From: Thermoproteota archaeon
Lineage (GTDB): Archaea > Thermoproteota > Thermoprotei_A > Sulfolobales > Pyrodictiaceae
DNA length: 64,000 nucleotides
Direction: 5' to 3'
Assembly (NCBI GenBank): GCA_013153145.1
Contig: JAADEY010000019.1
Span: 1-64,000 of the forward strand
This document shows, one piece after another, positions 48,209 through 55,789 of the stretch. Under the pieces are notes generated by a model. The model was not told the origin of the DNA, ran no database searches, and worked only from the letters and a program-made list of their open reading frames with translations. Both the position numbers and the translations under genes were made by a program. The stretch's first letter is position 1. The number at the start of each line of letters is the position of its first letter.

Positions 48209-51076
48209 ATGATGCCGCGACAAATGACGGCAATGGTGAGCCTTGAGAGCCTCGAGTCCAGCATGAGTCCACGCCTAATCGAGCTAATCCGCGAGAGGGG
48301 CTGGAGCGGGCTAACGAGGATACAGGCGGAGGCATTAGAGGCTGTAAGGAAGGGAATGAATATAGTGATAACGGCGCCTACAGGGTATGGGAAGACAGAA
48401 GCCGCGCTACTCCCGGTCTTCGACGAGATAATCCGCGGCCATGTCGAGGTGAAACCGATAACAATACTCTACATAACCCCGCTACGGGCACTGATAAACG
48501 ACCTCTACCACAGGATATCATGGTGGGCCAAGAGACTAGGCCTACGCGTAGCGAGGAAGCATGGAGACGTGCCACACATAGAGCGTGCAAGGAGGCTACG
48601 CCACGCGCCGCATATACTCATAACAACGCCGGAGAGCCTGGAGATAGACCTCGACTGGGCACACAAGTTTAGAAGGCACTATGTAAACGTCAAGTGGGTC
48701 GTCGTCGACGAGGTTCACGAGCTGGTAGGCGGCAGGCGCGGCGCCCAGCTCGCGGTACTGCTGGAGAGGCTACGCAGGCTCGCCGGAGACTACCAATTGA
48801 TACTCCTCTCAGCAACCACCGGCGATCCCAGGCTCGTTGGCAGGGTCTTCTCCGGCTCATCCAAGAGGAGCCTTAGCGTGGTCCAGCTGGCGGAGAGGAA
48901 GCCCATAGAAGTGACTATAGAGTACGCCGAGTTCACGGGAGAGCATAGCTGGAGGAGGATAGCTGAGAGACTCAAACAGCATATAGAGCCGCTGACATTG
49001 ATATTCGTTAATTCGAAGTATGTTGCCGAGAGACTGCATGAGGCACTACGCAAGGCATCCGACTACAGGATAGCAGTGCACCATGCATCAATGTCTGCAG
49101 CTGTGAAGGAGGACATAGAGCACAAGGCCAAGAACGGCGAGCTCGACGTAATAATATGTACGAAGACGCTGGAGCTCGGCATAGATATAGGCGTGGTGAG
49201 AAAGGTAATACTATTCAGGCCGACGGGGACTGTGTCGTCACTCCTACAGCGCCTCGGCAGGAGTGGCCACGAGATAGGCGGTGTAACGCGCGGAGTCGTA
49301 GTAGCTACCGATACAGCAGACCTCATAGAGGCGTTGGCCGAGGCCAGGCTAGCCGTACGCGGCGTAGTCGAGAAGCCATCACCGTTGAACTGTCCGCTCG
49401 ACGTCATGGCGCGGAGTATTGTCGGGATGGCCCTCTCCGGAGACTACACTCTCGAGCAGATCAAGGACATACTCGGAAACGTCTACTACTTCGCAGCATG
49501 CCTCGACGAGGAACGCTTCAAGATAGTCGTGGACAAGCTACTCGAGAACAAGCTGATAAAGGTAGACAGCAAAGGCCGCGTCACCGCTGGGCCGAGCTTC
49601 TACAGGATCTGGCGTTTCGAGTCGACGTCGAGGAGGTGGTGGGAGAAGAGCTTCACCGAGTTCTTCACGCTGATAAGTAACCGCGACACCTTCACAGTCA
49701 AGACCTCCTCCGGAAGGGTGGTCGGCGAACTAGACACAGAATATGTCCTCACAAGCCTAAGGATAGGCAGTGTGATCAAACTAGGCGGTAGAACATGGAG
49801 AGTCATAAGCATAGATGAGGTCGCACAGACAATAATAGTTGAGGAGGCGCCAAACCAGACACCCACCATACCATACTGGAGAGGCGAGGGCCCCGAAGTC
49901 TCAAGCCTCGTCGCCGAGGAGTCGCGCAGAGTATTACGGGAGCTGGTTGCCGACGGGCTGAAGCTACCACCGAATATAATGCTCACAGGGACTGCAGCGG
50001 CGAAGCTGCGTGAGCTACGCGACCGCATAATCAAGTATAGAACCATAGTGCCGGACGAGGACACCGTCATAGTCGAGCAGATGAACGACGAGATAGCATT
50101 CATAATGCCGTCAGCGAAGAAGATGATAAGGACGCTCGCCTACGCGCTCCTAGCCGAGGCGAGCAAGGCGAACATAGAGACGCATGTAAGGATAGCATAC
50201 CAGGGCTTCACAATACATCCTCCCCAGGGATATAACCCGATAGAGGACCTGGCATCCCTAACACCGGAGGAGCTTAGGGAGAGGATACGCGCAATCATCC
50301 CGAGGACAAGCTACTTCCTAAAGATAGTCAAGAACTACCAGCTCGCCTTCGCAATACTGAGAAAGTTCACCAGAAGCGAGGGCCCACTATACGATGAAGC
50401 CATCGAACAAACCATAAGGGAGTACTTCGACGTGGACGCTGCAGCGAGATTCATAGAACAGTTGAGGGCGGGGGTCAAGAGAATAGTGCCAAACACCGGG
50501 GCGGCGCTATTCTACACGCTAGACCTGCTCCGCAATGCACCGGAGAAGCTCTGGAGCCTAGAGGTCGACGAGATACTCGCCGAGGTCATGGAGGGACTCG
50601 CCTTCACCGTGGAGGAGCTAGCTGACGCGACGGGACTCCCAGAGAAAGTGGTTGAGTCGAAGCTAAAGGAGATGAGGAAGCCAGGACACCGTCACCGCGT
50701 ATTCCAATTCATAGACGTGGACACCGGGGAATGGCGCTGGGCGCTGGTGAGGGATGCAGTCGAGGTAGCGTCATCGGAGGAGTTTGCATCGTCTTTCCAG
50801 CCAATACGTGGCGACGGCCTATACATGGTACTAGTAAAGACCAAGGAAGGCGGATTATACCATGTAACGGTGACCCCCAAGGAGCTCATGGAGAACCCGT
50901 CACTCCTCGAAGAGAAAATACCGATAAAGGAGATCTACGAAGTGAAGGTCATCCCCCTAACAGCATACGACGATATATCCATCAAGTACTACCATGTACC
51001 ATCCAAGCTGCTGGGCATCATCGTCCTCAACGCGATAAGCGTGCTTCAGAGGGTAGAGGACTCCAACCCCTATTAA
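48209..51076 (+). CDS. Lhr-type superfamily 2 helicase (second paralogue)
   Basis: 955 residues. Motifs: Q-motif region GLTRIQAEAL, Walker A TAPTGYGKTE (about 55-64), TPLRALINDLYHR, TTPESLEID, DEVH (about 167-170), LLSATTGDP, then IFVNSKYVAERL, CTKTLELGIDIGVVRKV and QRLGRSGHE. The C-terminal ~500 residues match the Lhr winged-helix and barrel domains. It is clearly a separate paralogue from the gene at 10827 (DEVH against DEIH, PTGYGKT against PTGTGKT). Role: 3'-5' unwinding in repair or transcription-coupled processes. Start ATG 48209 or 48212. Two box C/D candidates follow the gene. Confidence 0.92.
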   Translation: MMPRQMTAMVSLESLESSMSPRLIELIRERGWSGLTRIQAEALEAVRKGMNIVITAPTGYGKTEAALLPVFDEIIRGHVEVKPITILYITPLRALINDLYHRISWWAKRLGLRVARKHGDVPHIERARRLRHAPHILITTPESLEIDLDWAHKFRRHYVNVKWVVVDEVHELVGGRRGAQLAVLLERLRRLAGDYQLILLSATTGDPRLVGRVFSGSSKRSLSVVQLAERKPIEVTIEYAEFTGEHSWRRIAERLKQHIEPLTLIFVNSKYVAERLHEALRKASDYRIAVHHASMSAAVKEDIEHKAKNGELDVIICTKTLELGIDIGVVRKVILFRPTGTVSSLLQRLGRSGHEIGGVTRGVVVATDTADLIEALAEARLAVRGVVEKPSPLNCPLDVMARSIVGMALSGDYTLEQIKDILGNVYYFAACLDEERFKIVVDKLLENKLIKVDSKGRVTAGPSFYRIWRFESTSRRWWEKSFTEFFTLISNRDTFTVKTSSGRVVGELDTEYVLTSLRIGSVIKLGGRTWRVISIDEVAQTIIVEEAPNQTPTIPYWRGEGPEVSSLVAEESRRVLRELVADGLKLPPNIMLTGTAAAKLRELRDRIIKYRTIVPDEDTVIVEQMNDEIAFIMPSAKKMIRTLAYALLAEASKANIETHVRIAYQGFTIHPPQGYNPIEDLASLTPEELRERIRAIIPRTSYFLKIVKNYQLAFAILRKFTRSEGPLYDEAIEQTIREYFDVDAAARFIEQLRAGVKRIVPNTGAALFYTLDLLRNAPEKLWSLEVDEILAEVMEGLAFTVEELADATGLPEKVVESKLKEMRKPGHRHRVFQFIDVDTGEWRWALVRDAVEVASSEEFASSFQPIRGDGLYMVLVKTKEGGLYHVTVTPKELMENPSLLEEKIPIKEIYEVKVIPLTAYDDISIKYYHVPSKLLGIIVLNAISVLQRVEDSNPY

Positions 51077-51111
51077 CACGCTCCCCTTCATCATATACCC
51101 CCAGAGAAGGG

Positions 51112-51164
51112 GCGATGAGGACGCCACGGCTTACCTGAAAAGTGATGAGGGTCCGTGATGCGGA
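51112..51164 (+). ncRNA. Candidate box C/D sRNA downstream of the second lhr gene
   Basis: C-like GCGATGA (51112-51118), 16-nt guide, perfect D' CTGA (51135-51138), 3-nt spacer AAA, perfect C' GTGATGA (51142-51148), 12-nt guide GGGTCCGTGATG and a weak D CGGA (51161-51164). GGG before C and CCC after D could form the terminal stem. The inner D'/C' pair is better than the outer pair, which is unusual, so confidence is moderate. No target identified. Confidence 0.45.
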
Positions 51165-51205
51165 GCCCCGCCAACACGAATAAGGCCCCGCTGCACAGCG
51201 TGCCA

Positions 51206-51253
51206 ATGATGAAAACGCCTGCACCTACGGGTGACGAGGTTATCCCCGGCTGA
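51206..51253 (+). ncRNA. Box C/D sRNA predicted to guide 2'-O-methylation in the 23S peptidyl-transferase centre
   Basis: C box ATGATGA (51206-51212), 12-nt guide AAACGCCTGCAC, D'-like CTAC, 2-nt spacer, C' GTGACGA (51231-51237), 12-nt guide GGTTATCCCCGG and D box CTGA (51250-51253). GTGCC (51200-51204) and GGTGC (51254-51258) form a five-pair terminal stem with wobbles. The D guide is the reverse complement of CCGGGGATAACC; the universally conserved 23S segment CCGGGGAUAAC (E. coli about 2442-2452, recalled) matches 11 of 12. By the N+5 rule the methylated base would be the third G of GGGG, about G2446. It ends 11 nt before the next gene. Confidence 0.75.
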
Positions 51254-51264
51254 GGTGCGGCGCC

Positions 51265-51780
51265 TTGAAGTGTAGGTACTACATGCTCGTGACGATCGCG
51301 GTTAAACCAACGGCTTCACTGGCATCCCTCCTCGCCAGGCTAGAGGGCAAGAACTGGGCAAGGATCATCGACCATGATGAGATCACAAGGAGGGTTCATA
51401 TAGCTATAGGCATGGATAAGTGGTTCCTCCTCGAGGACTTGCTAAGGCCATACGCCGACACAGCCTCAATAGAATTCAAGGCAGCCTGCTGGGGGCGGAA
51501 GGAGGTGATCAATGCACTTACAAGAGCAGGTAGAGTCGTCAATATCACGCCTAGAGGTGAGAAACAAGTAGTGATAATGTGCAGGGACGGCATGATACTT
51601 GCAACGTTGAAGAACAGACAGGTTAATGCGAAGTATTGTAGGCGGGTGTTGGGCCCCGTAACGCCGAGTGCCTGCACATTCTACTACCCCTACGATAACA
51701 TACCGACCCTCAGCGTCAAGGCAATCAACTGCTTCAGCGAGCTGAGCGACTACGTTAAAGAACTCAAGAAACATACATAA
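51265..51780 (+). CDS. Unknown protein (171 residues)
   Basis: Starts TTG 51265. The protein has alpha/beta character: YYMLVTIAVKPTASLASLLA, WARIIDHDEITRRVHIAIG, FLLEDLLRPYADTASIEFKA, RGEKQVVIMCRDGMILATL and a C-terminal helix ELSDYVKELKKHT. Cysteines occur singly. The fold may be an RNA-associated alpha/beta domain, but nothing is diagnostic. It lies between two C/D sRNA candidates and alba2, with 66 bp to the alba2 start. Coding is clear from codon use. Confidence 0.65.
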   Translation: MKCRYYMLVTIAVKPTASLASLLARLEGKNWARIIDHDEITRRVHIAIGMDKWFLLEDLLRPYADTASIEFKAACWGRKEVINALTRAGRVVNITPRGEKQVVIMCRDGMILATLKNRQVNAKYCRRVLGPVTPSACTFYYPYDNIPTLSVKAINCFSELSDYVKELKKHT

Positions 51781-51846: not shown

Positions 51847-52116
51847 ATGCCCGCAGCCAGGGATAATGTCGTTGTAGTCGGTAGGAAGAGCGTCTCGGAC
51901 TATGTGCTTTCTGCAATCCTACTATTCAACGAGGGGAAGGACGAGATAATAATCAAGGGGCGAGGAGAGAACATAAGCAAGGCCGTAGACGTATATAATG
52001 CTCTCAAAGCAAGGCTCGAGGACAGCCTAGAGCTTGTATCAGTGAGGATAGACAGTGAGCGGGTCGGCCCAAGGCTCGTCTCCTTTATAGAGATAAAGGT
52101 CAGGAGAGTGCTTTAG
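51847..52116 (+). CDS. Alba-family chromatin protein (paralogue 2)
   Basis: 89 residues. NVVVVGRKSVSDYVLSAILLFN (described as the first strand and helix) and EIIIKGRGENISKAVDVYNAL carry the Alba DNA/RNA-binding face, with the Lys-Ser pair (K14, S15) at the position of the acetylated Lys16 in Sulfolobus Alba. The C terminus is more diverged and shorter than the 57484 paralogue. Alba dimers coat DNA and RNA. Heterodimers of Alba1 and Alba2 are known in crenarchaea. The 3' end overlaps reverse gyrase by 17 nt tail to tail. Confidence 0.93.
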   Translation: MPAARDNVVVVGRKSVSDYVLSAILLFNEGKDEIIIKGRGENISKAVDVYNALKARLEDSLELVSVRIDSERVGPRLVSFIEIKVRRVL

Positions 52117-55100
52117 CAGCCTCAGCGAGGCTGCCGGAAGCCTGCACAACCTCCAGCGGGTGCTCCAGTAGGCTCAGCTCGTACAGCTCTCTGTACAGCT
52201 CATCTACAAGCTCCACGGGATCAGCCCTACCCTCCTCAACACTCCTCATCTTCTCGTAGAGCATGCGCGTCCTCTCGAGCGACACCAGCCTGTTGAAGTT
52301 GTCTACAAGGTAAGTGTACACGTTAACACCGAGCCTTGTAGGTACCAGGTACTTCCGGTACTTGCTCTCTATAACATAGCCGTGCTGCCTCAGCACTGTG
52401 AGGGTGCGGGCATAGGTGCTGGGCCTGCCAATACCATTCTTCTTCATCAGCGCGACCACGTCTCCATGAGTATATAGCCTTACCTCAGACGACTTGTACG
52501 TCCTAACCTCTAGCGGCTTCACCAGGCGCCCCAATATATTGCCGAACTCCTTATCGATAACAACCGCGTCGTACATCCTCAGGAAGCCGGGCCGCACGGC
52601 ATCTATGTAGACGGTTAGCCTCGCCTCAACATCCCCAATGACCACCCGTGCATCAACCCTCCTCACCACTGCTGGCACCATCTGGCTCGCCATGAACCTG
52701 CGGAATATCAGCTCATACAGCCTGAAGTGCGACTCACGCAGCCTAACGCCTATGAATACGTTACCTACGGCTATCTCCTGCCTGAGCTCCTCCGGGTCGT
52801 GGGGCATTGTAGGTCTAATCGCCTCGTGATGGCCCGGCGGCCCCCAGGCCCGCGGCTTGAACTCCTCTGCGAGGCCGTGGGCTGACAGGTACTTCTTGGC
52901 AACCTCTATCCCTGTACTCGAGACGTGGGTCGAGTCTGTTCTATGGTATGTTATCAGTCCTGTCTCGAAGAGCTCCTGCGCCAGCTTCATTGTCTTTTCG
53001 GCGGTGTAGCGGTACCGGGCGGAGGCGTCAAACAACAGCTCCTCGGTGGTATAAGGTGGTGGCGGGTTCAGGGTAACCTCCTCGATTCTTAGTGGCTCTA
53101 CGGCTACGCCGTTGCTTGCCTCCTCTACGAGCTCCCTAAGCTTATCACGGCCATGTATGTATAGGCGTATGGCCGTCCTGCTCGTAAGCCTTAAGAGGAG
53201 TACGTAGCAGCGCCTCCGCCGCCACTCACGGTACCTGGCTATAATCCAGCCGAGCACCGGTGTCTGTACTCTGCCGGCTCCAAGCCCCTGTCTCCCAAAC
53301 TTCTCCTGTATGTGCCTGCTTAGCGAGAAGCCTATCCAGCGATCCTCTATCCTCCGCACTACCTGTGCGGCAACGAGTGCAGGGTTTATCCTGCGTGGGT
53401 TGGCGAGTGCACGGTAGAGTTCTCCGCGCGTTATCGAGTGTAGCTCTATCCTCTCTATGTCCTCTGCATATGGCCTGAGCGCGAGGTAGAGGTCCCAGGC
53501 TATCTTCTCGCCTTCGACATCTGGGTCGGTGGCTAAGTATACTTTGCCGCTCTCTAATGCTAGTTGCCTGAGCGCCTCAATGACGGAGAACTTGTCCTCT
53601 ATGTTTGTTGAGCCGCAGTATGGGCATGCGGTGTGTGTTGCGGCGAACTGTTTGCCGCAGCTGAGGCACCTCTTTATAGGCGCGTATACCGGGTGATAGC
53701 CTTCATTGTCTATTACTACGCCGTGTACACCCTTCTCCTCTATCGTGAGGTCATAGATATGGCCTATGCTTGCAGTCACCGATGCTATGTATAGTGTGTT
53801 GTTAAGCGGGTTGAAGAATGAAGCCTCATAGACCATTAGCGGGCCTACACGCCTCTTTGCAGGCTTCCCGAAGAAGTTGGCGATGGTCTTAGCCTTTGTG
53901 GGTGACTCCACGATAATACAGCAGGTCTCTATGTGCACCTTCTTCATCTTCCTGCCTTTTCTAGTCTCCTCTGCTAATCTGAGAGACTCCCTGACCTTGA
54001 CGGGGTCATAGCGCTGGAAGGCCACGTGACCGCCCATGAAACGCTGTAGACGCTCTGCAAGCAGGTCGACTAGCTCCCGGTTCTCCTCTATCACTATTAC
54101 AACTCCATGGGTCATTCCACCGTTTAGGAGCCTGCTCGTCCTCCCACTTGCCTGGACGAATGTTGCTGTATCCGGTGTCACGTAGAGGAGTTCTCCGTTA
54201 ACCTCTATTATGGCTGCACCCTGCGCCCTGATAGGCTTCGGCAGCTTCCCTACAACTGTAAGGATTTTCTCTGCGAGTCCCCTCGCTATCCCCACTAGCC
54301 TGCAGACCCTGTTATCCGTCTTACACTGCAGGTCATCCCGGATGATCCTGTACACTAGCTGTAGCTCGCTTGGTGTGAGCTTCGAGAGCAGCTTTACAGC
54401 CTCCCTAACCTCTTCATCGCCCGGTAGTATGCTTATGGCCAGCCTGACGAGCCTCCGGGGGTTCTTTACGGCCTTGTCTAGCGGCTGGGCTCTAACAGGG
54501 ACGCCGACGAAGACTGCATACTTTATCCTGTATGGCAGGTCTATTCCTCTGACTATGGTTCCATAGTAGCTCGCCTTCCCTATGATCACGTCTGCCTCGC
54601 CGGAGGCGAACATCTTTAATGCCTTGGTGCTCCTGCCCGCCTTCGCGTAGACAGCCTTGATCCCCTTCTCGGACAGCCTCGCTACCAGCTCCTCTACCTC
54701 CTCGTCGCTATGTAGTGTTGAGAAGTATACTATCCCCCCGGGTCCAAGCCTTGCTATCAGCTCTGCAGCTTCTTCAATGGGTCTCCTCCTAGGCTCTAGG
54801 TGGAAGTTGTCGACCTCTCTGAGTGCGTCGTATAGCCTTCCTATCTCGAATCCTAGGAGCTTGTTGAATATCTTCGAGTGTAGGCCGTAAGCCCTGCCGG
54901 TTGCGGAGGCTATTATTAGCTGGCCTGGGTTAGACTCTGCTATGGCGTCTGCAAGCCTGGCTTCGGCCTCTATGAGTCTTTGTAGGAGTATTTCGGCCTT
55001 CTTCTTCCTCCCGCGTACCTTGGCTGCGAGTATATCGAGCCTGAGTCTTAGAGTCTTGAGGGCGTAGTCGACGGCATCGGGGGTGAAGCCGAGTGCGACA

Positions 55101-55789
55101 AGCACCCTCTTTATGGACTTCGGGCTCCTCAGCATAGCGTCTACATCGTCAACGATAACCGCCTCGAAGACAGCTCCCCGGAGGAGCCCCTCCTGCTGTC
55201 TCGCCAGGAAACTCGACGTGGTGACAAGGATGTCATAGGCCCCCTCCTTTATCGCATTGACCGCCTCACGTTTCTCGGCTGCACGGAGGTGGGAATGGTA
55301 GCGGATTATCCTCGCGTCTATTCCGAGCCTCTCAGCGTACTTCGTCAGCTTCTCGTAGACCTGGTTTACGAGGTTCTCTGTGGGTAGTATGTAGTATACC
55401 GGCCTCCTCCCGGACCGGTATAGCCATAGGCAGTACACGCTCAGCAGCGTCGTCTTACCCACGCCGGTCGGCGCGATGATCGCAAAGCTCTCCCCCCGGA
55501 GGAGCCTCCTGGCCCAGAGCTTCTGCACCGGCCAAAGCTTATGGCCCGTGGCCTTCTCGAAGAAGTCCTCAAATTCTTGGAGGAGTACGTGCAGCTTATA
55601 GACTATGCCGTATCGCCTTAGCACGCCACGCTCAGCCAGCAGCTCCCCTATATGCCTACTATCACCGGCTGGTATGCGTGGCAGGCACTTCCTGCATGGT
55701 AGCCCCTTGCTAAGCCTCTCCTCGCTGCAGGGGCCTCCGCAGTTGGGGCAGAGGCCTTCATAGACGCCGCTCAGCTTCCGCAACGTCAT
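52100..55789 (-). CDS. rgy: Reverse gyrase
   Basis: 1229 residues, single polypeptide without intein. N-terminal zinc finger CPNCGGPC...CRKC (about 14-35), helicase-like ATPase with Walker A APTGVGKTT (about 106-114) and IVDDVDAML, latch region, then the type IA topoisomerase from about 640: Toprim IIVESPTKAKTIANFFG, a second zinc finger CLSCGKQF...CPYCGS, DPDVEGEKIAWDLY and the catalytic tyrosine in GLITYHRTDSTHVS. It introduces positive supercoils with ATP and is the hallmark of hyperthermophiles. Tail to tail with alba2. Confidence 0.98.
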   Translation of the reverse strand: MTLRKLSGVYEGLCPNCGGPCSEERLSKGLPCRKCLPRIPAGDSRHIGELLAERGVLRRYGIVYKLHVLLQEFEDFFEKATGHKLWPVQKLWARRLLRGESFAIIAPTGVGKTTLLSVYCLWLYRSGRRPVYYILPTENLVNQVYEKLTKYAERLGIDARIIRYHSHLRAAEKREAVNAIKEGAYDILVTTSSFLARQQEGLLRGAVFEAVIVDDVDAMLRSPKSIKRVLVALGFTPDAVDYALKTLRLRLDILAAKVRGRKKKAEILLQRLIEAEARLADAIAESNPGQLIIASATGRAYGLHSKIFNKLLGFEIGRLYDALREVDNFHLEPRRRPIEEAAELIARLGPGGIVYFSTLHSDEEVEELVARLSEKGIKAVYAKAGRSTKALKMFASGEADVIIGKASYYGTIVRGIDLPYRIKYAVFVGVPVRAQPLDKAVKNPRRLVRLAISILPGDEEVREAVKLLSKLTPSELQLVYRIIRDDLQCKTDNRVCRLVGIARGLAEKILTVVGKLPKPIRAQGAAIIEVNGELLYVTPDTATFVQASGRTSRLLNGGMTHGVVIVIEENRELVDLLAERLQRFMGGHVAFQRYDPVKVRESLRLAEETRKGRKMKKVHIETCCIIVESPTKAKTIANFFGKPAKRRVGPLMVYEASFFNPLNNTLYIASVTASIGHIYDLTIEEKGVHGVVIDNEGYHPVYAPIKRCLSCGKQFAATHTACPYCGSTNIEDKFSVIEALRQLALESGKVYLATDPDVEGEKIAWDLYLALRPYAEDIERIELHSITRGELYRALANPRRINPALVAAQVVRRIEDRWIGFSLSRHIQEKFGRQGLGAGRVQTPVLGWIIARYREWRRRRCYVLLLRLTSRTAIRLYIHGRDKLRELVEEASNGVAVEPLRIEEVTLNPPPPYTTEELLFDASARYRYTAEKTMKLAQELFETGLITYHRTDSTHVSSTGIEVAKKYLSAHGLAEEFKPRAWGPPGHHEAIRPTMPHDPEELRQEIAVGNVFIGVRLRESHFRLYELIFRRFMASQMVPAVVRRVDARVVIGDVEARLTVYIDAVRPGFLRMYDAVVIDKEFGNILGRLVKPLEVRTYKSSEVRLYTHGDVVALMKKNGIGRPSTYARTLTVLRQHGYVIESKYRKYLVPTRLGVNVYTYLVDNFNRLVSLERTRMLYEKMRSVEEGRADPVELVDELYRELYELSLLEHPLEVVQASGSLAEAAKALS

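Follow-up and report, generated by a model that had tools for sequence, protein, structure and literature searches.

A predicted tandem C/D box sRNA in a Pyrodictiaceae archaeon that would guide 2′-O-methylation of G2446 in 23S rRNA

Results

Organization of the locus and parts of the sRNA

The window, i.e. the whole 64-kb stretch of DNA analyzed here, contains a C/D box sRNA that lies wholly inside the 188-base gap from the end of a gene for an Lhr-like helicase (51076) to the start of a 171-aa ORF (51265). The features of the locus are listed in Table 1. The C box ATGATGA and the D box CTGA are located near the ends of the RNA as in archaeal C/D box sRNAs, and of the internal boxes, C′ (GTGACGA) fits and D′ (CTAC) is degenerate. 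A sequence-only reading of the window had described the C, C′ and D boxes as near-consensus and both guides as 12 nt long, and a letter-by-letter check finds this description, including its coordinates, right to the base. That a terminal stem can form, as the same reading had proposed, also holds, since CGTGCC and GGTGCG may form 6 bp including two G·U pairs at a distance of one base from the C box.

Table 1 Features of the sRNA locus and its neighbors
Feature	Position	Strand	Basis
Lhr-like DEAD/DEAH helicase	48209–51076	+	syntenic neighbor
Second C/D box sRNA (sRNA-1), terminal stem GGGGC/GCCCC	~51109–51169	+	sequence, folding, homologues
sRNA-1 C box GCGATGA	51112–51118	+	sequence
sRNA-1 D′ guide core CGCCACGGC, complementary to 23S GCCGUGGCG	51122–51130	+	D′ register approximate
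sRNA-1 D′ box CTGA	51135–51138	+	sequence
sRNA-1 C′ box GTGATGA	51142–51148	+	sequence
sRNA-1 D guide GGGTCCGTGATG, partly complementary to 23S AACACGGGCC	51149–51160	+	pairing
sRNA-1 D box CGGA, degenerate	51161–51164	+	sequence
Possible terminal stem, 5′ arm CGTGCC	51199–51204	+	read from sequence
C/D box sRNA body (C, D′ guide, D′, C′, D guide, D)	51206–51253	+	boxes checked letter by letter; homologues
C box ATGATGA (consensus RTGATGA)	51206–51212	+	letter check
D′ guide AAACGCCTGCAC, 12 nt, without convincing target	51213–51224	+	letter check, target scans
D′ box CTAC, degenerate; then GG	51225–51228	+	letter check
C′ box GTGACGA	51231–51237	+	letter check
D guide GGTTATCCCCGG, 12 nt; 11 bp with 23S CCGGGGAUAAC; N+5 = G2446	51238–51249	+	letter check, pairing
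D box CTGA	51250–51253	+	letter check
Possible terminal stem, 3′ arm GGTGCG	51254–51259	+	read from sequence
171-aa ORF, no Pfam family, conserved in Pyrodictiaceae	51265–51780	+	syntenic neighbor
Alba	51847–52116	+	syntenic neighbor
Reverse gyrase	52100–55789	−	syntenic neighbor

The C-C′-D arrangement occurs once on the two strands of the 64 kb, with 0.0 occurrences expected and none in 60 Markov-1 random windows. Rfam at the gathering threshold returns only a tRNA within the 64-kb window and no curated family for the sRNA. The context of the D′ box, CTACGGGTGA, is also found between the two guides of an unrelated sRNA-like locus in a relative (L027).

Single-strand MFE folding of the sRNA region gives z = −0.55, i.e. 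no excess stability, with a program that does not model kink-turns. Folding was rejected as support for a functional RNA, being uninformative in either direction. Within 51215–51262, the MFE fold would allow the D′ guide region (CGCC.UGCACC) to pair with flanking sequence on the 3′ side, GGUGCGGCG.

The sRNA is preceded at a distance of approximately 36 nt by a second C/D box sRNA (sRNA-1), which is absent from the sequence-only reading. The two guides of sRNA-1 fit 23S segments approximately 20 nt apart, AACACGGGCC and GCCGUGGCG, and its D guide has two mismatches to the 23S site beside the D box. Of the 44 distinct homologues of the 51206–51253 sRNA, 36 have this guide no more than 300 nt upstream. 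The variants in these 36 loci should be noted. They are GGTCC (18), GGCCT (10) and GGCTC (8) against an invariant GGGCC in 23S rRNA; the perfect complement GGCCC occurs in none of the 36, and exactly one G·U pair is kept, at three different places. A position near A575 obtained for the sRNA-1 target by pairwise alignment to E. coli is not relied on, since the region aligns poorly.

The D guide and its target

The 23S rRNA of the organism itself was sought in the source assembly (1.19 Mb, 79% complete) with a covariance model and BLAST and was not found, so the target sequence was read from the 23S rRNAs of relatives. The segment CCGGGGATAAC is present in those of the family and the order. The D guide GGTTATCCCCGG forms 11 contiguous Watson–Crick pairs with CCGGGGAUAAC (E. 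coli 2442–2452), and the 12th guide base is opposite A2453 and unpaired. Counting five from the D box reaches the third G in the GGGG run, which is G2446 when aligned to E. coli rrlB. Both the complementarity to approximately 2442–2452 and the N+5 assignment to about G2446 had been put forward from the sequence and agree with the relatives' rRNA.

Conservation of the sRNA and its neighborhood

By pattern scan, 79 of the 229 genomes in the class have the C′-guide-D pattern with at most one mismatch, and none of the 229 has the reversed pattern. The source family Pyrodictiaceae has it in 18 of 20 genomes, in a single copy each. When the 91-nt region is compared with 58 relatives by BLAST, the matches center on the C′ box, the D guide and the D box; matches outside this part (e.g. 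L012, L022 and L023) looked like chance and were set aside. A suitably spaced C box (at most one mismatch) is present in all 44 distinct homologues, whereas chance is estimated to supply one in about one in five of them, and the register of the guide to the D box is fixed in all homologues.

In many relatives, the order is Lhr-like helicase, two-sRNA tandem, ORF171, Alba and reverse gyrase, which is syntenic across the order, and Alba and reverse gyrase are still beside the sRNA locus in more distant families.

A scan of 84,980 species of bacteria and archaea gives 42 loci, 39 of which are archaeal although archaea make up a small share of the collection. Methanothermococcus, Woesearchaeota, Marsarchaeota and two Asgard phyla (Baldrarchaeota and Hodarchaeota) are among them. 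In Methanothermococcus and some others, a reading of the sequence places the G2446 guide at D′ instead of D; loci of this form in other archaeal phyla are L043, L068, L069, L070, L076 and L084. The D′ placement in some archaea indicates either more than one gain of the guide or a shift from one position to the other.

Covariation of guide and target

The guide and the 23S rRNA of the same genome are both readable in 21 genomes, in every one of which the core pairs. Three variant forms of the target are accompanied by matched guides. In G137, the 23S sequence is CCAGGGATAAC (G2444A) and the guide is GTTATCCCTG; in G201 and G178, CCGAGGATAAC (G2445A) is matched by GTTATCCTC; and in G052, CCAAGGATAAC (A2444 A2445) is matched by TTATCCTTG. 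Each variant guide suits its own 23S rRNA better than the other variants do (for G052, 8 versus 6–7 core pairs). The guides of G137, G201 and G178 were found without the prompting of a complementary-form search, and that of G052 was found by searching six genomes for the complementary form with 2 mismatches, for which approximately 0.4 chance matches are estimated. No other evidence here argues as strongly as this covariation that the guide would act on the 2446 site.

Three independent lines, namely conservation, guide/23S pairing within genomes with compensatory changes, and synteny, thus support the C/D box class proposed in the sequence-only reading, the target of the D guide and G2446 as the predicted nucleotide. 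Since the boxes are short, C/D-like words might arise by chance in an intergenic spacer; the conservation across genomes, the covariation and the motif statistics refute this explanation, to which we assign a negligible probability.

The D′ guide in the window and in relatives

The D′ guide had been described as having no nameable target, and this description stands after scans of relatives' rRNA and a tRNA check in the organism's own genome. The best guide-register matches in the 23S and 16S rRNAs of relatives are weak, scattered and not conserved, and none of the exact own-genome matches to GTGCAGGCGT, taken from the D′ guide, lies within a tRNA gene.

Some D′ guides of the relatives have recognizable targets. 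Versions of ATCGAGGTA make up the D′ guide in 19 distinct homologues (L009, L017, L103, L105 and 15 more), and the pairing of this guide with 23S UACCUCGAU puts C2498 at N+5. Where the 23S rRNA of genomes with this type of guide was read (G003, G044, G034, G110 and G088), position 2499 is C or U. None of the A2499 genomes has a guide of this type, a comparison in which phylogeny is not corrected for, and G104 and G063 have C2499 yet lack it. The D′ guide of two sister Pyrodictiaceae, G009 and G002, fits a different segment, GCGGGCGAGAGCUC, near 2460–2475 and just 3′ of the D target. The D′ guide at 51213–51224 fits neither the C2498 segment nor GCGGGCGAGAGCUC.

The D′ guide in the window is probably empty, and empty guides are documented for other archaeal sRNAs (PMC4644070). 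It would have lost or changed a partner target that is kept in relatives, i.e. C2498 in the 19 and the region near 2460–2475 in the two sisters. The degenerate D′ box and the targetless D′ guide, together with the two mismatches of the sRNA-1 guide beside its D box, could also be read as signs of a gene decaying in the source genome, with a non-functional D′ side and a D side that is a relic. However, the D guide is undamaged, as are the C, C′ and D boxes, and there is no mismatch in the 11-bp pairing; such decay is very unlikely.

Discussion

The 51206–51253 sequence is very probably the gene of a double-guide archaeal C/D box sRNA, the second of a conserved tandem, whose D guide is predicted to place G2446 for 2′-O-methylation. 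The RNA would assemble with L7Ae, Nop5 and fibrillarin. The genes for fibrillarin and Nop5 are side by side on another contig (C8) of the same genome, and to our knowledge L7Ae is universal in archaea. The D guide would then pair with CCGGGGAUAAC at 2442–2452 in the peptidyl-transferase ring, and the N+5 rule would position G2446 for ribose 2′-O-methylation, both the expression of the RNA and the methylation being predicted.

The properties of this RNA resemble those of the archaeal C/D box sRNAs described in PMC4644070 and PMC7994747 in the boxes, the 12-nt guides, the N+5 geometry, the target near the peptidyl-transferase center, and a genome that encodes fibrillarin and Nop5, with no difference in kind. 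The same sources give helices 35/35a, 61, 68–71 and 90–93 as hotspots. Neither main text contains the E. coli number 2446, but both papers follow a numbering of their own, and an archaeal prediction at G2446 may already have been published, e.g. in their supplementary target lists.

The corresponding site in eukaryotes should be noted. Yeast Gm2815 is nearly fully methylated, with snR38 as its guide (PMC5199042). Human, Arabidopsis and Dictyostelium share the site (PMC8817022), to which one snoRNA of Plasmodium has also been assigned (PMC2656528). In PMC11542601, plants, human, yeast and an alga share one row for this site, in which the cell of the archaeon P. abyssi is empty, and Um2921 is paired with U2552 in the A-loop as its equivalent. 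The distance from Gm2815 to Um2921 is 106 nt, the same as that from G2446 to U2552, indicating that yeast Gm2815 equals E. coli G2446. The snR38 family (yeast Gm2815, human Gm4392 and Arabidopsis Gm2816) therefore has the same target nucleotide as the D guide of the 51206–51253 sRNA. The likeness noted is in the target, and membership in the family is not assigned.

Since the 23S target is near-universal, the archaeal guides and snR38 can have converged. A G2446 guide inherited from a common archaeal–eukaryotic ancestor, by which the archaeal guides, those of the two Asgard phyla (L061 and L084) and snR38 would be of one descent, with the tandem and its neighbors fixed in one archaeal order, appears unlikely.

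The main role of the RNA could alternatively be that of a chaperone, whose guide pairs with the peptidyl-transferase ring and so helps pre-23S rRNA to fold, while G2446 is methylated incidentally or not at all. Dual guides are proposed as chaperones in PMC4644070, and in the 19 relatives with the C2498 guide, both guides aim at the peptidyl-transferase ring, at sites 52 nt apart (G2446 and C2498). However, the D box–guide register that is fixed in all homologues is what methylation of a single nucleotide requires, and the equivalent base is methylated in eukaryotes. We consider a predominantly chaperone role to be quite improbable and methylation of G2446 to be the predicted function of the D guide.

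The nucleotide placed by the D′ guides of the 19 relatives, C2498, is the one methylated by RlmM in E. coli (Cm2498, PMC11542601). RlmM is a protein-only enzyme in bacteria, whereas an RNA guide is predicted for the site in the relatives; the D′ guide of the window itself has no C2498 target.

The kind of RNA found here is well known, and what the analysis adds is the guide–target covariation, the conservation of the tandem and, in relatives, the link to C2498. The sRNA offers a concrete predicted archaeal guide for a site in the peptidyl-transferase center that is listed for eukaryotes and not for archaea in PMC11542601, and the natural compensatory changes between guide and rRNA are evidence of function for the G2446 guide. 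At C2498 in the related archaea, a predicted RNA guide would do the job that the protein RlmM does in E. coli.
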